Assembly (NCBI GenBank): GCA_963965975.1
Contig: OZ014421.1
Location: 5,445,001 to 5,509,000, forward strand
DNA length: 64,000 nucleotides
Direction: 5' to 3'
From: Xestospongia bergquistia
Lineage: Eukaryota; Porifera; Demospongiae; Haplosclerida; Petrosiidae
This document shows, in pieces, positions 1-16,449 of this stretch (its first letter is position 1; each line of letters begins with the position of its first letter). The position numbers were made by a program, and so were the translations under genes. A model generated the notes under the pieces. The model was not told the DNA's origin. It saw only the letters and a list, made by a program, of their open reading frames with translations, and searched no databases.

Positions 1-300
1 TGGTTCTGGGATACACATCAGTTCAGTTGGGTTTGAATATCTTAGAGGTGCTTTGGATCTCACAACTTCATAAGACAAGTTGCTGAAAATAAGATCAGTC
101 TTTGGTGTGAAGAGCTCCATCGCTAAGTCCCATTTTCATGCTGCTTATGCAGCCTTTTTTGACAGACTATCGTCACATTGGACATATTTCTTTCAGATTA
201 CAAATTTGTTGGCAACTTTTCTGAACAACTCCGGATCAAAACCTCCATTCAAGGAGAAAGAGGAAGTATATCAGGGATAACACAGCTCCCCTTTATAACA
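1..300 (+). pseudogene. Reverse-transcriptase relic (left flank)
   Basis: Frame-broken sequence matching the right-flank relic at 14,510-15,290. Recognisable pieces are a glycine-rich segment that includes a phenylalanine-glutamate-tyrosine-leucine run, and further on HAAYAAF followed by SSHWTYFFQI. These are characteristic of the region after the YADD box in a reverse-transcriptase family common in invertebrate genomes. Stops and indels show it is dead. The catalytic part would lie left of the window. Confidence 0.65.
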
Positions 301-605
301 AAGTAGGCCCTATCCTTCAGAAGACTATGGATCTTTGTAATGAAAAAGGTGTGTCCATCTGGCTCTCTGTTTTACCAATCTAATTTCATGAATTCACACT
401 AGCTACATAAGACAGCATTGTATCTTTGCTATGGCTGGTCCATTAAGAATTCTTCTTCACGTTGTAATTGTGGCCAACTCTTTATAACTGATCAATTGCT
501 ATCTTGTCCATTGGGGGGTTTCCCTCTATAAGACACAATGAAATATGCAACATTAATGCCTCCTTTGTGTGCCACAACATGTCAATAGAGCCAAGTCTGC
601 AACAA
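300..605. other. No gene seen; insertion relative to the mirror copy
   Basis: About 270 bp here (roughly 270-540) has no counterpart in the right arm, where the sequence runs straight from the AAACCTCCATTCAAGGAGAA landmark to the one near 14,500. No coding signal was seen. Confidence 0.5.
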
Positions 606-606
606 A

Positions 607-637
<31 letters not shown>

Positions 638-720
638 GTTATTATTATTGTTACTGTTGCTGTTGTTGTTATTATTATTATCATTATTATTTTAATGGCT
701 ATTACTATTACTATTATTAT
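606..720. repeat. ATT-rich microsatellite
   Basis: Imperfect trinucleotide repeat of ATT with GTT and ACT variants. It causes spurious poly-Leu and poly-Ile reading frames on both strands. Its mirror counterpart is near 14,330-14,450. Confidence 0.9.
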
Positions 721-769
721 TTTTGTTTTTGCTTTTGTCTTTAAAATCAAATTCCTATGAGTGTAAATA

Positions 770-1920
770 GCCAATGTAGTAGATGATGAGGTTTTGACAC
801 AAGATATGTTCGATCAGTACAATAGTAACCAATTAACATGACAAAAATTACATCACCTAATCGTTATGATTAGAAATGTGATAAAACATAATGGCCAAAC
901 ATAAAGGTTTAAGATATCTATAGCAGATCTTAAACAATTAATTTCTATTAGTCAAAGTCATCTATGAAGTTTTGGCACAAGATATCTTCATATAGTGACA
1001 TTAGCAACCAATTCATTTGAGAGAAATGACATCATCATAATCTGCATTACAGTGGCCTTAAATCCTAATCTTTAAACATAAAGCTTTGAGATGGTTACCA
1101 CATCACTAAAACCATAATTTCTATGAACAAAAATGGCCAATAGAGTAAATACTGAAGCTTTGACACAGGATTAATTTGAAAAGTCAATTTTAATTACCAA
1201 TTCACCTTAGAGAAACAACACCTCAATAATCATAATTACAAGAGCCTTAAGCCCTAATGCCAAACTTAAAGTCTTACAATCTCTATCGCAATCCTTAAAC
1301 CCTAGTTTATATGAGTGAAAATGACCAATAGAGTAGATACTGAAGTTTTGTGACAAAATATCTTTCAAAGTGACATTGTTAACAAATTCATATGAGAAGA
1401 ATGACATGACCTTAATTGTATGATTGCAATGCCTTAAACCCTAATCACCATGCAGAAAACCTTAAGATGTCTATGGCAGTCCTTAAAGTCTAATTTTTAT
1501 GAGTCAACCCTAATATGCTAACATCAAGCCTTAAGATTACTATTGCAAACTTTAATTGATCCCTCCTTTATATGAGTAAAATAGCGAATGAAGTATATAC
1601 TGAAGTTTGGTACAATATATATATATATATGAGAAAAAAGACATCATCCTAATTGATATGATTAGAGTAGATTTAAACCCTAATTGCCAAAGATTAAGCT
1701 TAAGGTGGCTATGACATCCCTTATACCTTAATTATTTTGCATGAAAATGGAGTAAATATTGAAGTTTAGGCACAAGATATCTTTGGAAAGTGATGTTAGT
1801 AACCAATTCACTTGAGAAATATGACATCATCCTAACTGGCATGATTACAATGCCTAATCGTCAAACATAAAGCCTTTAACAAGTCTATGGCAGTCTTTAA
1901 CTCAAACTATACAATACTTT
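770..1920. repeat. Diverged tandem repeat of about 185 bp (left arm)
   Basis: About six units share the order: an AAxACTGAAGTTTTG-type start, a CACAAGATATCTTT-like block, a GTGACATTAGTAACCAATTC-like block, an ATGACATCATCCTAAT-like block, a CTTAAACCCTAAT-like block and a TCTATGGCAGTCCTTAAA-like block. Unit starts lie near 775, 955, 1,135, 1,325, 1,590 and 1,745. The units differ by many substitutions and indels, so the array is old. The array is mirrored at 12,655-13,800. It sits between the transposon-derived core and the outer relics, where subterminal repeats of a large element would lie. Confidence 0.75.
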
Positions 1921-1925
1921 CATAA

Positions 1926-2335
1926 AAAGGTGAGCTTGATCAACTATTGAACAGACTTCAAACTCTTGGTGTGACAGATGCCATGAAGTCTCACCCAATT
2001 AGTACTGATCCTTTATGCCCTACTGAATTGACTCCAGGTATTGATTGAATAGAAGAGTCAACAGTACGTGTAATCTGTGGTAATGTGTTTATTCTTCTAT
2101 TCCTAATTAGGACTATCAAGTCACTGTTTCAAAACTGAGTTGGCTACTCTGAGAATTCAAGTCATAGAAAGGAGAAAGAAATGTCAACGTATGTACATTT
2201 GGTGACTATTTAAGGACTTCAGTAATCCAGCAACCTTGTATCCAACAGCTTCTACATGTACTATTCACTTTCTCACTCACTCTACCGACACAATACTACA
2301 ATGACTATAATCAATTTAAACTCAAGGTGGGTTAT
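1926..2335 (+). pseudogene. HECT-domain tail relic (left arm)
   Basis: Reads in broken frames as the C-terminal part of the transposon-linked HECT protein. ELDQLLN.LQTLGV, then LCPTELTPGID, then YSENSSHRKEKEM match, in order, segments at 8,553-8,795 and about 8,460-8,540 (-) in the spacer. Internal stops and missing parts, including the catalytic-cysteine exon, make it non-functional. It runs straight into the integrase relic. Confidence 0.75.
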
Positions 2336-2341
2336 CTGTGT

Positions 2342-2990
2342 GTGCTTGATAAAGATGGATAGTTGGATTGAAAGCATAGACAAATTTGAGAAGGAATAGA
2401 GATGATTAAGAGAATCTATCCCTCGAGTTCTAAGGCACTAAGAAGGCTCTTATAAGGGAGCTGACCATTAGGAAGCATGCGTATACCTAGAATTGCTGGT
2501 TACTAATTGCTGGGACTTCACTCCTGTGACTGGAGTAGTCCACCAACTGATTGTTCAATTAACTACTGATTCAGTGATATAACTAATCAAAATTTGGATG
2601 ACCTAGTTAACGAGATTGTAACACGCTTACCTGCTAGTAATATGCAATCAATACAGACCCTGCTTAAAGGAAATGGTGGGATATTGCTAAAAGAAAATGG
2701 TCTATTCATTGCGTTGACTCCTTGGGACTTGAAACTAGGCTACATAAAACTCTGATTGTCGGCAATATAATGTTGGCACATTGATGGATATTATAAAAGT
2801 ATAAGGTGGCGGTGAGTAATACATTGCAGTATAGATGGACATGGCCACACAACCAAACGCCACATCAGCTATGGATTCTCAGAACGCCTCAAGCTAGGAT
2901 GGAAACACCAACTAGCAGGGTAGTACTAGGAGTTACTGGAATTACTGAAATATGTATATTTTGTAATTAGTGCCATGTTATACAATACGT
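2342..2990 (+). pseudogene. Internally deleted DDE integrase relic (left arm)
   Basis: Homologous to the intact gene at 5,770-6,999 from its first codons (GATGGATAGTTGGATTGA) to its end, but with several stops and small deletions. A deletion of roughly 415 bp matches intact bases about 6,475-6,893. That removes the second catalytic aspartate and the glutamate, so this copy cannot encode an active enzyme. It looks like a non-autonomous derivative. The mirror copy is at about 11,584-12,233. Confidence 0.85.
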
Positions 2991-3359
2991 GGGTTAGTCC
3001 ATGTAATGTACAAAGCATAATATTAACTATTACTCATCATGACATCAGTTACAACAAGTACATGTGACCTTGATTACTGTACATGATGTAAAGATGTCAT
3101 TTATTAATGCATTAACTTTATTGAGGTTGGGTATTAAATTTTCACAGATAATGTTGGGAACAGTTTGTATATCTTTTATTAAACATTTACCATATCCAGA
3201 ACTTCTTGTATTAACAATAAGATTAAAAATGTATTTTGAAATCACCAATTAATAACAGAGTAAATGACAAATAATGAAAAGAACTAATATGAAAATTTTG
3301 AGATGATATAAGAGACCGATAGTGAACTTCATATTATTATATAAAATTATAAAAACGAC

Positions 3360-3360
<1 letters not shown>

Positions 3361-3428
<68 letters not shown>

Positions 3429-3429
3429 G
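3361..3429. repeat. (TAA)n microsatellite (left arm)
   Basis: About 23 perfect copies of the AAT/TAA trinucleotide, about 220 bp before the HECT start codon copy. The mirror copy at 11,145-11,213 has the same length, which is striking for a fast-mutating microsatellite. Confidence 0.95.
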
Positions 3430-3648
3430 AGCTAGTCACAGTTCAGTGACCAATCAGATTTTGCTATGTCAATCTTTGTTGTACCGCCAAAAAAGTATCT
3501 AGAAAGTAGAAACGAACGTCTTGCTACTGTTTGCTAAGTCTTTATAGTGGTACGAAGATAAGTTTGAAGTTTGAGAGAGGTTGTCTGTAAGTATCAACTG
3601 TCAAGTGTTTACGTTTTACCAACTTATTTAACTAGGGTAGTTTCAAAC

Positions 3649-4936
3649 ATGGCAGGTTTTTTTTCACAGGATCTTGTTGAAAAGGCTCAAGAGGCAATAA
3701 GAATTATGGAGTCATTTACCTTGCCTACTCCATCATTAGCATCTCAAGGCCCTACTACTAGCTCTGGTGAGACTGAACTATGTATGTATACTATACATGC
3801 ATACCGCGTATGTCTAGTCACTTGCATTGACAAAGACAAAAGCATGATCAGCTGGCATACCAGAAAAATATCAACTAATGTAAACTTTTGCCCCTATGTA
3901 GTTATTGCTATCATAGTATAAGGAACACCTGCATGCAGGTATATAGGTTGATAAATGACCTTTCATGTATGCCTACCTATGTATGTATAGGTAATGCAGG
4001 GGATACGGTGATTCAACAAACATGTGATATTGCACTGAGCAATCTCCAAAGGGCCAGGGAAGCCCTCACTGCTAGAGTTCGAGAATTGAGAAATGAAAGT
4101 TCTTTTAGCAGAGAATTTACCCGAGCATCACCTTTCTTAGGACAGAAGAGAAGCTCTGTGAACCAACTGGACAAGCGACCATGTAAACGTGCAGCAAGGA
4201 CATGGACACAAAAATTTGTTTGTTTAAACTACTGATGCAGAGAAAGATGCTTTGTTGGGAGCTGGGCTTGGGGAAAAGAAGATTGTTGTTGAAAATGTTG
4301 ACTGCTCAGGGGAAGAGTTTTGTGAGCTATTGCATGCAGCATTTCCAAAATTAAAAGATTCTGGTGGCTTCATATTTGCAAAGTGCAAATGTAATTCACG
4401 GTTTTTAGAACGACTCTCATCAATGTGTTTAACCTCACCAAGAGCTTTACAAGAAGAAATTGGTAACTCTAGAACATACATTATTCCATTGGAGAGAGAT
4501 TTAGACTTGACACCCTGCCGTCTTCCACCTGGGGTAAGGCTTGCTGATTATTAATCTCAACATATTTATTTATCATACATGTACATATAGCCTGTGGTGA
4601 AGTGCCTATCATGTGCTAAAGACATTCCTGTTACAGTATTTTGTCATCATTTGTCATCATGTATAAAGTCAAGGTGAGATGTCTACTATGCTTATGGTTT
4701 GAGTTGATTATATGTCATGTAGGAGAGGGCTAGAGGAGGATATGCAACAATCAAGTGATGAGGATTTTGACCCACCCCCACCAACCTTTGTTCATCTTCC
4801 ACATCCTTCCATGTCATCAAGTAATGTTGAGCTTCTTGATGAAGAGTCTGATCTGGAAATTGAAGAGACAGAAGATGCAATTGTCACACATACACTTGAG
4901 CTAAGCATTAATGAATTTGATGAAGTTGGCAGGTAA
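3649..4936 (+). pseudogene. 5'-half copy of HECT E3-ligase gene, truncated at the palindrome edge
   Basis: Identical on the opposite strand to the first exons of the HECT gene at 9,638-10,925. The first exon starts MAGFFSQDLVEKAQEAIR. Later exons carry the segment ending in RTYIIPLERDLDLTP, a CxxC...HH...C stretch, and an acidic exon ending NEFDEVGR before a GT donor at 4,934. The mirror identity stops at 4,958, and no HECT catalytic exons follow before the integrase start at 5,770. It could still be transcribed, giving a protein without the catalytic lobe. Confidence 0.8.
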
Positions 4937-4958
4937 TGCTGCAAATAGTTAGAGCTTA

Positions 4959-5769
4959 TACTTTCCATACTTTCTCTCTCTCTCTCCAGAGATGGAGAGA
5001 ATCTACTAGAGAGACAAGCAAACAAAATTGGATACTTACAAGAACATAATGCTTAGGATGAAGAATAATGAAAACACAAGAAAGAACAATGTAATAAAAA
5101 ATTGATAATGAATGGACTATTTTAGTTATTTCTGCATTCCTGCCTTACTAATTTAATGGCCAACTATAATATATATATACGTATATATATATATTATATT
5201 ACATATAGTTAATCAGTGTGTTATTTTATAATTATGTAATTGACATTTGTTACGTCACTAATCAACTACACTGATGAAATGTAATTGAATTATATGAAAC
5301 CTCTATCCTCTAACATCTACATCATAAAGTCTATTCACTTCTCATGTGACAAAGGCAAATGTTAAAGACAGTTGTATCTCTGTCAGTCTTGTCTGAATAT
5401 TATACATTAATATTAACATTAATATTAATATTATTATTATTGAACATATATAGGCAGTCAATATCTTTATTGGTGGAAGAGCATTGTCTTTAGTTGAAAA
5501 TCCAGATTATATCATCGCATCACTGGCAGTAATAATAGTAATTATGTTGTAATTGTCTCGATATGAAAAGAAAAAGAAAGCATTCAAGTGCAGAGGTTGT
5601 CTTAAAACAGAATGACCAAACTATAAAGAAAACGTTACTACATCTAACCGTACACTTCTCTTTTAGCTGAATATTCTAAAGATAAAAAAGAGCTTCTCAA
5701 GCGACGCCTTTAATTATAATAAAATCTAACAGTCAATTAAGAGTTCATATCCGTGTGTGCTTCATAAAG
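4959..5769. other. Unique spacer upstream of the integrase; no gene seen
   Basis: AT-rich sequence without a convincing exon. It contains a short CT tract near 4,975, an alternating-TA palindrome at about 5,165-5,215 and a small ATTAATATT repeat near 5,405-5,440. It should hold the integrase promoter, but no clear TATA box or initiator stands out. Confidence 0.5.
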
Positions 5770-7714
5770 ATGGATGGTTGGATTGAGAGCATTGACAAAC
5801 TTGAAGAAAGAGTAGAGATGATCAAAAACATCTATCCCTCGAGTTCTATAGAAGCTAAGGAGGCTCTTATTGAGGGAGCTGACCGTTTATTGGAAGCATG
5901 TGTACAGCTAGAACTGCTGGTTCCTAATCGCCAGGACTTGACTCCCGTCACTCGAGTAGTCCAACAACTGATTGTGCAATTAAATACTGACCATGAAATG
6001 GCAGTGATTACTTCAGTTGTGAGAGATCGTGGCCGACCACCTTTAGACATATGCGAGGATCAAGTTAGATTCTTGGTTGAAAATGGATTTAAAGAAACTG
6101 AGATTGCACCACTGATCGGTTGCTCTACACATACAATTCAAAGAAGACTAAAAGAGTTTGGAATTGAATTCAATCAATTCAGTGAAATAACTAATCAAGA
6201 TTTGGATGACCTAGTTAAAGAGATTATAACACGCTTACCTGCTTGTAGTATACGATCAATACAGACCCTGCTTAAAGTTAATGGTGTGATATTGCAAAGA
6301 GAAAGAGTAAGAGAGTCAATTCATCGTGTTGACCCCTTGGGACTTGAAACTAGACTATGTAGTACTCGTTATCATCAGCAATATAACGTTGCAAACCCAA
6401 ATGCATTGTGGCACATTGATGGATATCATAAACTTATAAGGTGGAGATTAGTAATACATGGAGGTATAGATGGATATAGCCGAGTTCCTGTTTACTTAAA
6501 AGTAGCCTCTAATAACAAAGCTGTGACTGTTTTTAATGCATTTCTGCAAGCTGTTGAGTTATTTGGACAACCATCTTGTGTACGTTCGGACCGTGGAGGA
6601 GAAAATTTTCTAGTTGGACGTTTCATGCTTGAGCATTCTGAGAGAGGTCCAGAGAGAGGAAGTTACATTTGTGGTAGAAGTGTCCACAACCAAAGAATAG
6701 AACGTTTATGGAGAGATCTTTTTCAAGGCTGCATTCGTTTCTATTACTTCCTGTTCTATTCACTGGAAGAAGTGGGTCTATTAGATCCAGCTAGTGAAGT
6801 TGATATATGTGCCCTTCACTTTGTTTATCTACCAATTATACAATCTCAAGTAGACATGTTTCGTGAAGCATGGTGTAATCAACCTCTCAGTACAGTACAC
6901 AACCAAACACCACATCAGCTATGGATTCTCAGAATGGCTCAAGCTAGGATGGAAACACCAACTAGCAGGGCAGTACTAGGAGTTACTGGAATTACTGAAG
7001 TATGTATATTTTGTAATCAGTGTCATGTTATACAATACGTGGTTTAGTCCATGTAATGTACAAAGCATAATATTAACTATTACTCATCGTGGCATCAAGT
7101 ACATGTCTCCTTGATATAATCATTAGTTATAGCTTTCTGTAGCCCAAAAGTCACAAAAATGACTGAGGACCTAAAATCCTCTGGAAAAGCATTCCTTCAG
7201 TCCCTGCCTAAAGTTTTATTGTTGTGGTTGGACACTTTTCTAGTTGTGATCAATTTTCCCCTCCCTTCTGTCAAGACAAATTCTAGAGTAAACGCTGCTT
7301 TGTGTATTAGTTTGTACATAGACTACCAAATGTCCACAATTTGTCCTCATTTTCTCCATTTGACTACACCCAGCAAAGGATTATAAATCTTATAACATTA
7401 TACCAGGTGTAAAGTTAGATTAGCATACTGTGTTGAGGACTATTTAGAAAGAAATGAAAATATTAGTTATCAGGTTCTTTTATTTGCAGGACTGTGATTA
7501 TGGGATTGACTGGAGTGGACCAGTGAGTAGTGATGATGATAGTAATACTGTAATTGTTCCTGATCTTCCATCTAATTTCTTAACTGAACATCAAAGAATC
7601 TCGTTAACAAAAGAACTTCAACAGTATCCAGACACAAAATTTGGTGTAGAACACTACATCTTAGCGAAAGGCTTCATCTCAAGTTGCCACTCTCCACCAC
7701 AAACAGTTACATAA
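5770..7714 (+). CDS. DDE integrase-core transposase of a DNA transposon
   Basis: Two exons, 5,770-6,999 and 7,490-7,714, join in phase 0 and give about 484 residues. An N-terminal helical region is followed by a helix-turn-helix (ETEIAPLIGCSTHTIQRRL) and then an rve-type catalytic core. Numbering from the GTG 15 bp upstream of the chosen ATG, the catalytic residues are D222 (WHID), D279 (RSDRGGEN) and E316 (NQRIERLWRD), a DD36E arrangement. The HGGIDGYSRV segment is typical of a widespread metazoan integrase family often found with HECT genes. The second exon supplies the conserved acidic tail (YGIDWSGPV). The ATG at 5,770 was chosen because the upstream in-frame codon is GTG. Superfamily is uncertain (IS3EU-like is possible). 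The frame is open throughout, so it may be recently active. Confidence 0.87.
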
Positions 7715-7951
7715 ACATTTTCCCTTTTTCAAAAAAATAATTATGATTCCCTTCCAAAAATATAAACAGATTGAGTGTGAAATAAACTATTGATTGACAA
7801 AATGGTTTTCACCAAAAATTCATCAAGTGTATATATTGCAGAGACTACACTGTCCCAAAAACATAAAATGAATACAATGAACGTAAGATAGATTGAACAT
7901 AAGATAAACTAGTTTTTATCAAGAGCATAAATGTATTGAACATAACATTAA
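7715..7951. other. Convergent 3' region between integrase and HECT
   Basis: The stop codons of the two transposon genes face each other across 237 AT-rich bases. No further gene is visible. Confidence 0.6.
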
Positions 7952-10925
7952 TCAAACTACACCAAACCCACCATGACAAGCAAAGGCCTGATCCATTTTG
8001 AGTTTAAATTGATTATAGTCAATGTAATATCGTGTAGGTAGAGTGAGTGAGAAAGTACATGTAGAGGCTGTTGGATAGACTGCATCGTCGATGAATGACA
8101 GAGTTGGATCTATATCAAACTCGAGTGGAGGTACAGCTGATGAACCAGTAAAAAAACTCAGAATGTCCTTTAAGGAAACTTCATTACTTCCACCTGTAAG
8201 GAATGTGAAAGTATATTGAAAGTATATAAACAGCGTATGCAAACTTTACAACTAATCTTAGTGAATGTATACATAAAGTGACTAATGAAATGATATCAAA
8301 GAAACCACTAAGACAATGGAGGCTGAAACTAACTCAATCATGTCATTACTTAATGAGCTATAAACCACAAGGCCAACCCCATCACCAGAAAGTATTGACA
8401 TTATTGGTAAATGAATATTTTTTTTTAATAAATAGGATGCTTACTTTTGCAGTCACCAAAAAGTATGTACGTTGCCATCTCTTTCTCCTTTCTATGACTT
8501 GAATTCTCAGAGTAGTGAACTCGGTTTTGAAACAGTGACTTGATACTCACTATTAGAAATAAAAGAGCAAACACATGTCATCTGGCACACCAAGAGTTTG
8601 AAGTCCATTCAATAGTTGATCAAGCTCGGCTTTTGATCGAAGTATTGTATAGTACATTGTGATTCTATGCACTAAGGTAGAACGATCTTCAAGTGTCAAT
8701 GTTGTGGGACTCTTATTGAACCCACAGTAGGACAGTACTTCTATTGCATCCATTGATAGGACTTGGATCTGCTCATTGCTGACAGCATCTATCATCTAAG
8801 ACAACAATTAACAAGTCCATAAATAAGAGAGATTGGAAAAGTGTCCCTAACTGCTTAAGTAGGAAAGTTATAAACAAATTATAAAGTTGTATTGTGGAAA
8901 TAATACTGTGATTCTTTTAACATATAAAATAAAGAAACTACACAACAAAATTAGGCTAGTTCAGTAAATCTCAGCTAAATACACTCTTAAATTAGAAGTA
9001 CCTATAACATAGTCATCATGACTTATTTACCTTGCTTACTAATAGCTTGATGTCATAATTAGGTATAATAGTATAGTCAATAGTGATTTCGTTAAGCTCC
9101 TTGCCACAAAGGTAATCGTATAAACCCCTTTACAGATATAAGGATAGCCTGATCCTCCTTGACTAAGAGATTCAGACATCAAAGAGCCAATTTTGTAAAA
9201 AACATTTGTCTACAATGGAGTTGAGAGAAAGTCATTAGCAGCAACAGACTTTATACGTTTAAAACTGTCAACATCATTCAAATGATTTCATGCATTATAT
9301 ACCTGAAGACCAAAAATATCATGTCGAACTACTTTTAAAAGGTGCCAAAGTTCTCTTCCCAGTCCTCCACCATCTTCACCCTGTTCTCCTTTGAAGACAA
9401 CCTATTGAAGAAAGTCTAGTTTATGTGAAAATACAACTTGTACATACTTTGATAAGTTTAGTGGGAGAAAAGTCGCAATTGTTCACAATTTTAAAACCGT
9501 CTGCAAGTACACATTCTCTGTCAACTTCCAATAAAAATTCATCATATTGCTCCACTTTTCTGGACAACCTTTGTATGATGTCTTCCATTGAATAACTACA
9601 GAGACGAGAGGTTTAAAAGCTCTAACTATATGCTGCATTACCTGCCAACTTCATCAAATTCATTAATGCTTAGCTCAAGTGTATGTGTGACAATTGCATC
9701 TTCTGTCTCTTCAATTTCCAGATCAGACTCTTCATCAAGAAGCTCAACATTACTTGATGACATGGAAGGATGTGGAAGATGAACAAAGGTTGGTGGGGGT
9801 GGGTCAAAATCCTCATCACTTGATTGTTGCATATCCTCCTCTAGCCCTCTCCTACATGACATATAATCAACTCAAACCATAAGCATAGTAGACATCTCAC
9901 CTTGACTTTATACATGATGACAAATGATGACAAAATACTGTAACAGGAATGTCTTTAGCACATGATAGGCACTTCACCACAGGCTATATGTACATGTATG
10001 ATAAATAAATATGTTGAGATTAATAATCAGCAAGCCTTACCCCAGGTGGAAGACGGCAGGGTGTCAAGTCTAAATCTCTCTCCAATGGAATAATGTATGT
10101 TCTAGAGTTACCAATTTCTTCTTGTAAAGCTCTTGGTGAGGTTAAACACATTGATGAGAGTCGTTCTAAAAACCGTGAATTACATTTGCACTTTGCAAAT
10201 ATGAAGCCACCAGAATCTTTTAATTTTGGAAATGCTGCATGCAATAGCTCACAAAACTCTTCCCCTGAGCAGTCAACATTTTCAACAACAATCTTCTTTT
10301 CCCCAAGCCCAGCTCCCAACAAAGCATCTTTCTCTGCATCAGTAGTTTAAACAAACAAATTTTTGTGTCCATGTCCTTGCTGCACGTTTACATGGTCGCT
10401 TGTCCAGTTGGTTCACAGAGCTTCTCTTCTGTCCTAAGAAAGGTGATGCTCGGGTAAATTCTCTGCTAAAAGAACTTTCATTTCTCAATTCTCGAACTCT
10501 AGCAGTGAGGGCTTCCCTGGCCCTTTGGAGATTGCTCAGTGCAATATCACATGTTTGTTGAATCACCGTATCCCCTGCATTACCTATACATACATAGGTA
10601 GGCATACATGAAAGGTCATTTATCAACCTATATACCTGCATGCAGGTGTTCCTTATACTATGATAGCAATAACTACATAGGGGCAAAAGTTTACATTAGT
10701 TGATATTTTTCTGGTATGCCAGCTGATCATGCTTTTGTCTTTGTCAATGCAAGTGACTAGACATACGCGGTATGCATGTATAGTATACATACATAGTTCA
10801 GTCTCACCAGAGCTAGTAGTAGGGCCTTGAGATGCTAATGATGGAGTAGGCAAGGTAAATGACTCCATAATTCTTATTGCCTCTTGAGCCTTTTCAACAA
10901 GATCCTGTGAAAAAAAACCTGCCAT
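7952..10925 (-). CDS. HECT-domain E3 ubiquitin ligase linked to the transposon (probably frameshifted)
   Basis: Multi-exon gene read from ATG 10,925 to TGA 7,952. Exon 1 is about 10,808-10,925. The following exons carry a coiled region, the RTYIIPLERDLDLTP segment, a Cys/His-rich patch (VKCLSCAKDIPV) and an acidic exon (9,638-9,855). The HECT lobe then follows: VVFKGEQGEDGGGLGRELW near 9,400, GSLMSESLSQGGSGYPYIC near 9,150, ELDQLLNGLQTLGVPDDM (8,553-8,795), NSSHRKEKE near 8,470, and a C-lobe (7,952-8,200) with the catalytic-cysteine motif ASTCTFSL and a HGGFG ending. It resembles the G2E3-type HECT proteins carried by animal transposons. Near 9,121 the frame of PYICKGVY and that of YDYLCGKEL do not join, which suggests a frameshift. 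The exons upstream of 9,616 are duplicated in the left arm. Confidence 0.75.
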
Positions 10926-11144
10926 GTTTGAAACTACCCTAGTTAAATAAGTTGGTAAAACGTAAACACTTGACAGTTGATACTTACAGACAACCTCTCT
11001 CAAACTTCAAACTTATCTTCGTACCACTATAAAGACTTAGCAAACAGTAGCAAGACGTTCGTTTCTACTTTCTAGATACTTTTTTGGCGGTACAACAAAG
11101 ATTGACATAGCAAAATCTGATTGGTCACTGAACTGTGACTAGCT

Positions 11145-11145
11145 C

Positions 11146-11213
<68 letters not shown>
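11145..11213. repeat. (TTA)n microsatellite (right arm)
   Basis: Perfect mirror of the left-arm tract at 3,361-3,429, with the same length. Confidence 0.95.
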
Positions 11214-11214
<1 letters not shown>

Positions 11215-11583
11215 GTCGTTTTTATAATTTTATATAATAATATGAAGTTCACTATCGGTCTCTTATATCATCTCAAAATTTTCATATTAGTTCTTTTCAT
11301 TATTTGTCATTTACTCTGTTATTAATTGGTGATTTCAAAATACATTTTTAATCTTATTGTTAATACAAGAAGTTCTGGATATGGTAAATGTTTAATAAAA
11401 GATATACAAACTGTTCCCAACATTATCTGTGAAAATTTAATACCCAACCTCAATAAAGTTAATGCATTAATAAATGACATCTTTACATCATGTACAGTAA
11501 TCAAGGTCACATGTACTTGTTGTAACTGATGTCATGATGAGTAATAGTTAATATTATGCTTTGTACATTACATGGACTAACCC

Positions 11584-12233
11584 ACGTATTGTATAACATG
11601 GCACTAATTACAAAATATACATATTTCAGTAATTCCAGTAACTCCTAGTACTACCCTGCTAGTTGGTGTTTCCATCCTAGCTTGAGGCGTTCTGAGAATC
11701 CATAGCTGATGTGGCGTTTGGTTGTGTGGCCATGTCCATCTATACTGCAATGTATTACTCACCGCCACCTTATACTTTTATAATATCCATCAATGTGCCA
11801 ACATTATATTGCCGACAATCAGAGTTTTATGTAGCCTAGTTTCAAGTCCCAAGGAGTCAACGCAATGAATAGACCATTTTCTTTTAGCAATATCCCACCA
11901 TTTCCTTTAAGCAGGGTCTGTATTGATTGCATATTACTAGCAGGTAAGCGTGTTACAATCTCGTTAACTAGGTCATCCAAATTTTGATTAGTTATATCAC
12001 TGAATCAGTAGTTAATTGAACAATCAGTTGGTGGACTACTCCAGTCACAGGAGTGAAGTCCCAGCAATTAGTAACCAGCAATTCTAGGTATACGCATGCT
12101 TCCTAATGGTCAGCTCCCTTATAAGAGCCTTCTTAGTGCCTTAGAACTCGAGGGATAGATTCTCTTAATCATCTCTATTCCTTCTCAAATTTGTCTATGC
12201 TTTCAATCCAACTATCCATCTTTATCAAGCACA
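11584..12233 (-). pseudogene. Internally deleted DDE integrase relic (right arm)
   Basis: Mirror copy of the relic at 2,342-2,990, with the same stops and the same catalytic-core deletion. Shared lesions show that the mutations predate the inverted duplication, or that the arms have been homogenised since. Confidence 0.85.
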
Positions 12234-12239
12234 CACAGA

Positions 12240-12650
12240 TAACCCACCTTGAGTTTAAATTGATTATAGTCATTGTAGTATTGTGTCGGTAGAGTGAGTG
12301 AGAAAGTGAATAGTACATGTAGAAGCTGTTGGATACAAGGTTGCTGGATTACTGAAGTCCTTAAATAGTCACCAAATGTACATACGTTGACATTTCTTTC
12401 TCCTTTCTATGACTTGAATTCTCAGAGTAGCCAACTCAGTTTTGAAACAGTGACTTGATAGTCCTAATTAGGAATAGAAGAATAAACACATTACCACAGA
12501 TTACACGTACTGTTGACTCTTCTATTCAATCAATACCTGGAGTCAATTCAGTAGGGCATAAAGGATCAGTACTAATTGGGTGAGACTTCATGGCATCTGT
12601 CACACCAAGAGTTTGAAGTCTGTTCAATAGTTGATCAAGCTCACCTTTTT
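12240..12650 (-). pseudogene. HECT-domain tail relic (right arm)
   Basis: Mirror of 1,926-2,335. It shows the same broken HECT C-terminal segments read on the minus strand, next to the integrase relic. Confidence 0.75.
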
Positions 12651-12654
12651 ATGA

Positions 12655-13800
12655 AAGTATTGTATAGTTTGAGTTAAAGACTGCCATAGACTTGTTAAAG
12701 GCTTTATGTTTGACGATTAGGCATTGTAATCATGCCAGTTAGGATGATGTCATATTTCTCAAGTGAATTGGTTACTAACATCACTTTCCAAAGATATCTT
12801 GTGCCTAAACTTCAATATTTACTCCATTTTCATGCAAAATAATTAAGGTATAAGGGATGTCATAGCCACCTTAAGCTTAATCTTTGGCAATTAGGGTTTA
12901 AATCTACTCTAATCATATCAATTAGGATGATGTCTTTTTTCTCATATATATATATATATTGTACCAAACTTCAGTATATACTTCATTCGCTATTTTACTC
13001 ATATAAAGGAGGGATCAATTAAAGTTTGCAATAGTAATCTTAAGGCTTGATGTTAGCATATTAGGGTTGACTCATAAAAATTAGACTTTAAGGACTGCCA
13101 TAGACATCTTAAGGTTTTCTGCATGGTGATTAGGGTTTAAGGCATTGCAATCATACAATTAAGGTCATGTCATTCTTCTCATATGAATTTGTTAACAATG
13201 TCACTTTGAAAGATATTTTGTCACAAAACTTCAGTATCTACTCTATTGGTCATTTTCACTCATATAAACTAGGGTTTAAGGATTGCGATAGAGATTGTAA
13301 GACTTTAAGTTTGGCATTAGGGCTTAAGGCTCTTGTAATTATGATTATTGAGGTGTTGTTTCTCTAAGGTGAATTGGTAATTAAAATTGACTTTTCAAAT
13401 TAATCCTGTGTCAAAGCTTCAGTATTTACTCTATTGGCCATTTTTGTTCATAGAAATTATGGTTTAAGTGATGCGGTAACCATCTCAAAGCTTTATGTTT
13501 AAAGATTAGGATTTAAGGCCACTGTAATGCAGATTATGATGATGTCATTTCTCTCAAATGAATTGGTTGCTAATGTCACTATATGAAGATATCTTGTGCC
13601 AAAACTTCATAGATGACTTTGACTAATAGAAATTAATTGTTTAAGATCTGCTATAGATATCTTAAACCTTTATGTTTGGCCATTATGTTTTATCACATTT
13701 CTAATCATAACGATTAGGTAATGTAATTTTTGTCATGTTAATTTTATTACTATTGTACTGATCAAACATATCTTGTGTAAAACCTTATCATCTACTATAT
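12655..13800. repeat. Diverged tandem repeat of about 185 bp (right arm)
   Basis: Mirror copy of the array at 770-1,920. The part inside 13,716 is essentially identical to the left arm. Beyond it, single-base differences and indels appear. Confidence 0.75.
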
Positions 13801-14330
13801 TAGCTATTTACACTCATAGAAATTTGATTTTAAAGACTGCTGCACAGATGTTAACACTTTTGACACAAATTATCTATGGAAATAATAGGCAGACTTTGTA
13901 AAATATAACAACTTCTGAAGAACAACTTTTTTACTTTCAATAGTTGATAATTTAAGGAAATAACATATTATTATAACTATGACTGGTGTGCCTGTTTGAT
14001 GTATTTGGTGTGCATAGTACTGACCCTTTAATTACTTCTGAAATGACTGGTAGTTCTACTAAGCAAACACCATTAATTAGTGATAATATATATAATTACC
14101 AATCAATAACAGAGAAAAAAAAATTTCATACATAACCAACAAGAATCAGTGAAAAGAACTAATTGAACATTCTGTGGACAATATAGAAACCAATAGTGAA
14201 CTTCAAATTATTATAAAATTTAGAAATGACTTATAACAATAACAATACTACTACTACTACTACTACTAAACTAATAGTAATACTATTACTAATACTTAAT
14301 AATGATAATGGTAATAATAGTAAATAAATG
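13801..14330. other. Extra sequence in the right flank; no gene seen
   Basis: About 480 bp here have no partner in the left flank. Part of it (14,050-14,230) resembles the arm sequence around 3,240-3,360: an ACCAATxAATAACAGAG block, AAAAGAACTAAT, and a GAACTTCAxATTATTAT block. It looks like a diverged piece of the same element rather than new DNA. Confidence 0.5.
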
Positions 14331-14452
14331 TTAACAAAAATAATAATAGTAATAGTAATAGCCATTAAAATAATAATGATAATAATAATAACAATAACAA
14401 CAACAGTAACAACAACAACAACAACAACAATAATAATAATAATAATATTTGT
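14233..14452. repeat. Trinucleotide-rich tract (ACT, AAT and AAC variants)
   Basis: Compound imperfect microsatellite corresponding to 606-720 in the left flank. It yields low-complexity Ile, Thr and Val frames that are not genes. Confidence 0.85.
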
Positions 14453-14509
14453 TGCAGACTTGGCTCTATTGACATGTTGTGGCACACAAAGGAGGCATAA
14501 ATGTTGCAT

Positions 14510-15290
14510 ATACGTCCTCTTTTCTCCTTGAATGGAGGTTTTGATCCAGAGTTGTTCCCAGCGACAGTCCATTAGGTTTGGAGATGTTGATTGCTTGTTA
14601 ATGAGTTTAATGAGGGGTCCACAAATTGAAGAATTGTACTGATGCAAAAGTAGCTGGTTTCTGTAATCCCAGACTTCACAGGTGAGTTGGTAAGGCCATA
14701 AGGTCCCGTTCCAGTTCCCCAGGTGGGTTTCTGTCAGATAGGGAGGGAATAAATTTTAATCGCAGCGTCTCTTCCAAAGGTTGGAGGATCTCTTATAGAA
14801 AAGTTGCCAACAAATCTGTAATCTGAAAGAAGTAAGTCCAATGTGACATTACTGTGTGAGTGAAGGCTGCATAAGCAGCATGAGGTTGGGACTTAGTGAT
14901 GAAGTTCAGGGTGTTAAGCTCCTCACACCAAAGACTAATCTTATTTTAAACAATTTGTCTTATGAAGTTGTGAGATCCAATAGCACCTCCAAGATATTCA
15001 AACCCATCTGAACTAATCTGTATCTCAGAACCAGCAGAGACCCTCCTTGCCTCATAGTTGAAGTTAGGTTTTAGAAGTAATTGAGTCTTCCAATTATTGG
15101 AGAGTAACCATAGTGTTGGGCTAGCGTATTTGGCTGATCCCATCACAAATTCAAATTCTGAAGACTACCACCAGCAGCTGAATCATCAGCATACTAGACC
15201 TGATCAACTGACATGTTTTTCCTGAGGTGATCAATCAATAGTAATGTGCTTATCCCATACATGGCCATAGCCAGGGGGTCCTCTCTTGAG
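14510..15290 (-). pseudogene. Reverse-transcriptase relic (right flank)
   Basis: On the minus strand, short frames read in order: a GDP-box-like REDPLAMAMYGIS, the catalytic YADDSAAGG, then EYLGGAIGSHNFIRQ, HAAYAAFTH, SHWTYFFQITDLLATF, and QYNSSICGPLIKLINKQ near 14,600. This matches an RT family frequent in invertebrate genomes. A stop codon just before YADD, missing sense bases and frame changes show it is a pseudogene. Whether it was a LINE-like or another class of retroelement cannot be settled here. Confidence 0.75.
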
Positions 15291-15299
15291 ATGGTATAT

Positions 15300-15321
15300 T
15301 GCCATAGAATGTGGAGGAGAG

Positions 15322-15352
<31 letters not shown>

Positions 15353-15590
15353 TAATAACAATAATAATCATCATCTCATAAATATCACAAATGAAAACAA
15401 AACTAAATAGTATATTGAGAACATCACCTTAGCAAGTACCTTCATATAATAAGAAGAGAATCATTCTGTTCATCACAACGCCCAATTGTGACGCCTACTT
15501 TATCCCCACCTTAATACTGAAATGGAAGGAATTTCCAGTATTATCGAGTATCGATACTTACAAAGATTGCTAATTGTACCTGTAGAATAG
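15300..15590. other. (ATA)n tract and non-coding sequence
   Basis: An ATA/ACA trinucleotide tract lies at about 15,318-15,372. The rest shows no coding or RNA signal. Confidence 0.6.
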
Positions 15591-15770
15591 TGAGTTCGCG
15601 AATTGCAATAATCGTGAATTCACAGTAAAGTCGTGAATTGTGAAATGAGAAAATCGTGAATTTCCGGTAAAATCGTGAAATTTGAATATGCAATAACCGT
15701 GAATTACTAGTAAAATCGTGAATTTTGAGTGTGCAATAATCGTGAATTTGGCGCCTATTTTTGTCGTAGT
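15590..15770. repeat. Degenerate cluster of a TCGTGAATT motif
   Basis: The motif TCGTGAATT, with variants such as CCGTGAATT and TCGTGAAAT, recurs about eight times in 180 bp at spacings near 15-30 bp. CAATAA or GTAAA links sit between copies. The minus-strand frame across it is a by-product of the repetition. No terminal inverted repeats or target-site duplications were recognised. Confidence 0.7.
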
Positions 15771-16449
15771 TCGTATTCCATAAAAGGAGTGTGGTCCTAT
15801 CTTTTGTTGGTGGACATTTCATAATGTATGGATTGTAGTATCTGATCGTGAAGCTATCAAGGTAATGATCATAATCTTATGCTCAATATTAAAATACAAG
15901 CATACGGTATTAAGGTGTCATAATTTCTACCATTGACACTAAAGGTGATAAAAGGTGTGAAAACTGTCACATTAACTCTTAACCCTAACTGTAGGTTCAC
16001 CAAAATACGTAAAGAATTTAAAAGATCTTACATGTAATGCAGTATATATATATAACTTTAAAAAATTAGTGTAAGAATTGCTAGGACTAGATTCTAGAAG
16101 ATAGATGTTGCTTTAAGATATATATGAAAGACATGAAAATGGACAAAACAACTATCATGGCTCACTTCACAACTATTCAAACATTAAAGTGAAATTTCAT
16201 TCCACATAGCATCCCTCATGGCAAAAAACTACAAAGATTTGCTTTTTGGGTTCGAGTTCCAGGCTTTCTGGATAACTCAATATTTAATTGCTAATTATAT
16301 TAATGACAATAATTATGGTAACCAAAACATGATTAAAATGACACAATGCTTTTTTAAGTTTATAAAGATACACCTTTGCACTGCACCAATAGATCTTTAT
16401 CATTTATAAAACTACACTATTTCAAATTGATATTTTTTTGTTATAAAAG
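15771..16449. other. Region where P450 N-terminal exons were expected; none found
   Basis: No exon encoding a membrane anchor or the first 90 or so P450 residues could be recognised. A 63-codon frame at 16,218 has no P450-like features. Confidence 0.5.

Follow-up and report, generated by a model that had tools for sequence, protein, structure and literature searches.

Elements of the IS3EU/GingerRoot superfamily, according to excerpts of the published descriptions, encode a DDE transposase and have TAYGG..CCRTA ends with a 6-bp target-site duplication (PMC12730594), while a second account gives TA..TA ends, a duplication that is usually 6 bp, and no HHCC domain before the core (PMC10045372). 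Accessory genes are part of these accounts. In the TET-bearing fungal IS3EU families, the TET gene lies between oppositely oriented transposase and alpha-kinase genes (PMC12730594), and Styx of Zymoseptoria, with four coding sequences, probably descends from an IS3EU element that encoded two proteins; the main text of that article contains the word “ubiquitin” 0 times (PMC10853768). Kolobok also carries accessory enzymes, with neither ubiquitin nor HECT mentioned in the main text (PMC9587614), and Helitrons carry deubiquitinase domains (VTD/OTU) (PMC9741609). Here, we analyzed a 64,000-nucleotide stretch of the Xestospongia bergquistia genome (the window, C11:5445001-5509000, from an assembly that totals 146 Mb and has 21 contigs; plain coordinates are window positions), in which a DDE transposase gene (also called integrase below) faces a gene for a HECT ubiquitin ligase (E3). 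Its spliced genes mark the DNA as eukaryotic, and EGF/teneurin-type and ANF-receptor domains at further loci of the genome point to an animal. We conclude, with a probability of roughly three in four, that this is an IS3EU cut-and-paste-type transposon carrying the HECT E3 as a maintained accessory module and not as a chance neighbor.

Judged by its fit to the published ends, duplication, and domain descriptions, the element is best read as a member of the known IS3EU superfamily; we file it there because its ends, its duplication, and the lack of an HHCC domain agree with those descriptions. In comparison with IS3EU/GingerRoot elements as excerpted, it shares the DDE transposase without HHCC, the TAYGG..CCRTA ends, and the 6-bp duplication, but its accessory gene is a HECT E3 and its inverted arms of at least 4 kb contain coding exons. 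Styx likewise combines an IS3EU-type transposase with accessory coding sequences, but it is fungal. As eukaryotic DNA transposons with a ubiquitin-system enzyme of their own, Helitrons are also comparable, as far as the excerpted account goes, although they are rolling-circle elements, the enzyme has the opposite activity, and the domain lies inside the Helitron open reading frame (PMC9741609), whereas here it belongs to a separate, convergent gene. The superfamily is thus known and accessory genes are known in kind, but a HECT E3 as an IS3EU accessory was not met in the open-licence literature, where we found no HECT in IS3EU or another DDE transposon and, in a search for both terms, no listed paper that combined IS3EU with HECT; Repbase and Dfam, outside that scope, may already record the pairing. 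The original prediction, made from the DNA letters alone, had called the system a candidate for an under-described one, a term that suits the integrase-HECT pair but not the element, since it matches IS3EU, for which other accessory genes have been published.

The transposase is encoded by two exons on the plus strand. Exon 1 (5770..6999) is an open frame with the DDE core (PF24764, rva_4; E 1.8e-76 on the transposase), and exon 2 (7490..7714), beyond an intron with GT..AG borders (7000-7489), encodes a DYGIDWSGP... tail; the database protein P0102 continues in frame into a comparable tail. The spliced frame (5770-6999 plus 7490-7714) has 484 amino acids and 0 internal stops. D217, D274, and E311 are present, with a D-to-E gap of 36 residues, and the three positions are invariant across 30 aligned database relatives; among the invariant or nearly invariant columns of these relatives, no conserved HHCC zinc domain was seen by eye upstream of the core. 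An AlphaFold2 model (mean predicted local distance difference test score 76.6; predicted template modeling score 0.49) had the core strand-helix order of RNase H folds, and its best Foldseek matches were IstA, retroviral integrases, and TnsB (E from 1.3e-6). The complete DDE transposase with a DD36E triad had been predicted correctly. The helix-turn-helix predicted with it fared less well: helices are predicted at that region of the model and some relatives bear precomputed helix-turn-helix Pfam domains (PF13384, PF13542, and PF13518), but the window transposase had no such Pfam match at E 0.001.

The unit had been placed at 5770-10925, which is only its core, the gene pair. The whole element measures 16,529 bp, with TATGG at the start and CCATA at the finish, and runs from position -746 (C11:5444254), beyond the left border of the window, to 15782; the portion inside the window is 1..15782. 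The tip of its right terminal repeat (15658..15782) reads TATGGAATACGAACTACGAC... on the minus strand and is followed by the target-site duplication AAAGGA (15783..15788), with the left AAAGGA just beyond the window (-752 to -747). A copy on contig C9 is collinear with this C11 copy, with 93.5-97.5% identity by segment over the unit and different flanks, and the similarity ends on both sides at TATGGAATACGAACTACGAC... (left end of the C9 copy: ...ACGACGAC). The terminal inverted repeats, which in IS3EU are longer than 30 bp, could be aligned over >90 bp at the four ends of these two copies. TATGG...CCATA ends were found at both sides of long copies in C11, C9, C4, C10, and C8, and four of the five long copies with both ends paired had perfect 6-bp duplications: AAAGGA in C11, ATGCTC in C9, GCTCTA at C4:1409263-1426402, and TGTATG at C10:3368828-3401931. 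The paired ends of the fifth (C8:4084041-4116504) had no matching 6-bp pair. With defined termini and perfect duplications, the unit is mobile, as had been proposed.

The HECT gene consists of about ten exon pieces on the minus strand (7952..10925) and converges on the transposase gene, with the 237 bp between the two stops (7714 and 7952) that had been noted before. Its combined exon peptides matched the HECT domain PF00632 (E 1.5e-8; 35.1 bits against a cutoff of 23.9), the same domain reached 35.6 bits in the diverged copy L073, and the sequence matched the solved AREL1 and HUWE1 structures. In the last piece, which holds the catalytic Cys motif in the alignment with AREL1 (7955-8194, minus strand), YPTASTCTFSLTLPTRY aligned with AREL1 LPTAHTCFNQLCLPTY, which we take to be the catalytic-Cys stretch; the STC motif is kept in C10a, C10b, C9, C4a, and C12. 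While the HECT domain is common to AREL1, HUWE1, and the gene described here, the latter differs in lying inside a transposon, in being broken in the window copy, and in its other domains: exon 2 (10056..10584, minus strand) encodes a predicted ubiquitin-like beta-grasp N-domain, and another exon (9903..9983, minus strand) has a zinc-finger-like C-x2-C...H...C motif that is UBZ-like by eye and gave only a weak Sgf11 match, below the cutoff. Exon 2 is continuous in three sibling copies, and the matched HECT exon pieces of another copy have no stops. The single-exon N-domain used as a query matched 20 database proteins, which come without genomic context; for the HECT protein, 0 proteins of the database were scored, perhaps since the database consists of unspliced predictions and a length filter excludes single exons. 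Similar N-domain-HECT genes are presumably common in fish annotations as G2E3-like.

The pairing recurs across the genome. We considered 13 family copies (a single match of ≥300 of 410 residues with ≥77% identity) and 10 diverged copies, in which the transposase is 41-51% identical. A convergent HECT was detected in 11 of the 13 well-preserved family copies, with the HECT 3' match 637-1081 bp downstream, and in six of the 10 diverged ones (C3:5906894, C5:3011196, C12:4048233, C11:4142717, C8:2954547, and C10:3521287), so that the integrase copies do not consistently lack the HECT neighbor, which was the outcome named in the original prediction as speaking against it. The HECT of C8:2954547 and C10:3521287 was seen on direct inspection, and the former also by Pfam. 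C3:5906894 and C5:3011196 have equal spacing and are possibly duplicates. Three extra loci with the match in pieces (C10:3629696, C10:3851078, and C8:4094332), outside the 13, also have a convergent HECT. Outside the 10 diverged copies are two relic matches in the arms of the C9 element, short fragments of the N terminus in array loci, and the locus C10:3873576, which matches in pieces of 36-62% identity and lacks a HECT within 5 kb; HECT-less fragments of shorter or intermediate length (e.g., C8:4202910, C8:4484867, and C8:2939892) belong to neither class. These counts are lower bounds, with 89 of 127 rows, 26 of 35 rows, and selected rows from the listed part of 159 matches as input; the rows left out of the 127 were extra fragments of loci already included. 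HECT was scored as absent on the basis of tblastn and of Pfam scans restricted to the convergent strand. Since Pfam found HECT in L073 and missed it in L074, where tblastn saw it, decayed HECT sequences can escape detection. Chance neighborhood was rejected: given that ~80 HECT 3' clusters are spread over 146 Mb, each copy would be expected to have ~0.0004 convergent HECTs within 1.5 kb; the corresponding tail probability is illustrative only, since the copies are not independent. The pairing of transposase and HECT looks old.

A wider set of at least 70 integrase clusters included 40 with a convergent HECT-C within 5 kb and 15 without HECT-C at that distance, two of which (the C8:2954547 and C10:3521287 loci above) then gained a HECT. 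We did not use these clusters as independent evidence because many of them seem to stem from a single decayed copy multiplied by large duplications. Seen from the HECT side, no integrase lay within 5 kb of 13 of the 80 HECT 3' clusters. In C5, C6, C7, C11 (3.2-3.7 Mb), C14, and C15, degenerate integrase and/or HECT fragments with similar lesions occur at a spacing of ~115-250 kb, as would be expected if very long repeat units, perhaps centromere-like, had multiplied a single decayed element that they contain.

Codon changes between copies were compared by the Nei-Gojobori method as the ratio of nonsynonymous to synonymous substitution rates (dN/dS), with bootstrap intervals, for nine copies; stop and unaligned codons were excluded, and the pairs share history. 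Against C10a, the HECT ratio was 0.43 (0.32-0.55) for C11, 0.40 (0.28-0.59) for C9, and 0.48 (0.33-0.74) for C4a, and the transposase ratio was 0.32, 0.33, and 0.34, respectively. Intervals lay wholly below 1 in 23 of 36 pairs for HECT and in 26 of 36 for the transposase. The HECT rows of C10c and C10d are unreliable, with two close HECT copies from either of which the codons could come; without them, 14 of 21 HECT pairs remained wholly below 1. Close pairs were uninformative or near 1. These ratios indicate that HECT codons are under purifying selection between subfamilies. Because the relative orientation of the two genes is constant and their spacing similar, in subfamilies and diverged families alike, and because both show purifying selection between subfamilies, we regard the pair as a maintained module.

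We propose that the RNase H-fold DDE transposase would bind the TATGG...CCATA ends and move the unit, leaving the 6-bp duplication. The E3 encoded opposite it, in which a predicted beta-grasp N-domain and a zinc-finger-like motif are joined by an acidic linker and a HECT domain that has the catalytic Cys, would act as a helper on nuclear proteins of the host and may ubiquitinate a silencing, surveillance, or repair factor. Within this explanation, a helper against a host factor is the most likely role, which we put forward tentatively and at rather less than even odds; self-regulation of the transposase would come next. As possible roles, the original prediction had offered the breakdown of host repressors or control of the transposase.

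The element has palindromic arms. The left inverted arm (737..4960, plus strand) is 99.6% identical to the right one (9614..13837, minus strand), its inverted copy, and 100% identical over 831-4960, so that exact inverted identity spans 4,130 bp. In C9, the arms are 98.2% identical over 5,096 bp, and the halves of C10b are 99.97% identical over 3,071 bp; two C4 copies and one C10 copy carry HECT 5' halves on both sides. The arms seem to be homogenized within a copy, because arm identity is near-perfect whereas C11 and C9 differ by 2.5-6.5% by segment. Since the arms contain the HECT 5' half, a second one lies in the left arm (3649..4960, plus strand) and points at the transposase. Just past this arm, a strong splice acceptor ends at 4989 in C11, C9, C4a, and C4b, which could, hypothetically, let the HECT 5' half of the left arm finish in an alternative last exon (4990..5056, plus strand) with a TAG stop and AATAAA at 5093-5098; in C9 this exon ends after two codons. 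The matches in C10b and C8 are ordered HECT> <INT INT> <HECT (INT, integrase), with a central spacer homologous to 4970-5402. The left arm also has a HECT 3' relic (1906..2325, plus strand; mirror at 12249-12668, minus strand) and a transposase relic (2333..3074, plus strand; mirror at 11500-12241, minus strand), which together (1906-3074) form an older HECT-transposase relic pair in tandem. Such relics had been taken as a sign that the two genes travel together; relics of both are indeed there and the pair co-occurs in other copies, but the arm relics alone do not show it, because the same element holds them twice as inverted repeats.

Several findings weigh against a maintained E3. Two of the 13 family copies had no detectable convergent HECT, namely C11:4109646 and also C10:3761430, where HECT 5' sequence lies on the integrase's strand, and none was detected within 5 kb of four of the 10 diverged copies (C9:7320557, C1:17496940, C2:8585144, and C10:1480937). 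Three sponge-associated contigs, which are only 3.4-4.2 kb long, with a 43-53% identical relative had no HECT by tblastn, nor did two of them by Pfam on one strand. In the window copy, exon 2 carries a break of the HECT frame that recurs unchanged in the left arm, and there are further differences within the HECT exons, so that the predicted HECT gene with a catalytic cysteine is confirmed for the Cys exon but not for the reading frame. C9, C4a, and C4b share a gap of 5 nt instead of 3 nt between two pieces of one exon, C9 has an additional frame break in the last HECT exon, and the last Cys of the zinc-finger-like motif is missing in C10a and C10b. Some HECT-domain pairs have dN/dS near or above 1, reaching 1.09-1.44 for the C11 group against C10c, one of the unreliable rows. 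Finally, C11, C9, and C4a have perfect duplications despite HECT damage or changes, so that not every jump requires a functional HECT in cis. The HECT could alternatively be a passenger, captured once, hitchhiking between the ends, and decaying with no role in transposition. In favor of this, the gene is damaged in the window copy and altered in the three closest siblings, three of these four copies (C11, C9, and C4a) have perfect duplications, and HECT-domain dN/dS comes near or above 1 for the closest copies, which differ by very few changes. We consider such a passenger unlikely, because the convergent pair recurs in six diverged copies with a transposase identity of only 44-51%, because C12 retains the STC motif, and because HECT dN/dS as a whole is well below 1 when the C11 subfamily is compared with that of C10a. 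If the E3 is a maintained helper, its decay in the window copy beside an intact transposase means that recent movement of the subfamily needed no E3 of its own or used that of another copy; HECT decay in a subfamily of nearly identical copies likewise leaves supply by another copy or dispensability.

The arms invite other readings. The E3 might mainly target its own transposase as a copy-number control, the duplicated HECT 5' half yielding a HECT-less competitor. The left arms of C11, C9, C4a, and C4b, which join HECT 5' exons to an acceptor, a stop, and AATAAA, would suit this, as would HECT 5' dN/dS of 0.21-0.50 among these siblings, with not all intervals below 1, but the four copies are nearly identical, which makes shared sequence weak evidence, the C9 tail has only its two codons, and C10b and C8, with a full HECT in both arms, have no such layout; we find this role quite improbable. 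Another reading, which we also rate as distinctly unlikely, is that a lineage of IS3EU transposons has turned an E3 into a core gene maintained for long, and that the giant arms, by duplicating its 5' half, enable one element to yield the transposase, the full E3, and as a third product an N-domain protein that lacks HECT and could serve as decoy or regulator. It is very improbable that the giant palindrome is an assembly artifact hiding a locus with short ends and only one integrase-HECT pair. Collapse or duplication during assembly could produce 4,130 bp of exact inverted identity, but similar layouts with their own sequence occur elsewhere (C9, two C4 copies, C10, and C10b), and the ends and duplications sit outside the arms.

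Some further observations concern the surroundings of these elements. Short elements with similar TATGG...CCATA-type ends are probably miniature derivatives. Ten such end pairs were fetched and eight were scored (L048-L055; L056 and L057 were left unscored), with ends 153-376 bp apart by the matches: exact 6-bp duplications were found in 0 of the eight, one right end being misplaced by the match, and two of them have an identical left flank. A block of ~150-550 bp, repeated several times with 66-72% identity within 786-1900 of the left arm (mirror at 12674-13832), possibly represents an old tandem repeat or a set of subterminal binding sites. Near the beginning of contig C1 (3922 to about 19554), a possibly subtelomeric unit of ~3.9 kb seems to recur head to tail, with identical pattern matches at 3922, 7823, 11724, 15625, and 19524. 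No relatives were found in IMG/VR. Three contigs filed under a bacterial metagenome-assembled genome (L078, L079, and L080; Cycloclasticus symbiont of a Poecilosclerida sponge) contain integrase relatives and are probably host DNA contamination, because the integrase is eukaryotic.

If the maintained-module explanation is true, a separate E3 beside a DDE transposase would mean that transposons add ubiquitin too, beyond the known Helitron deubiquitinases (PMC9741609, as excerpted), and a conserved E3 would offer a direct handle on host factors that restrain transposition. The family lends itself to tests, since several of its copies are nearly identical and the HECT exon pieces of another copy are free of stops. 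The palindromic arms, seemingly homogenized within copies, pose a second question.

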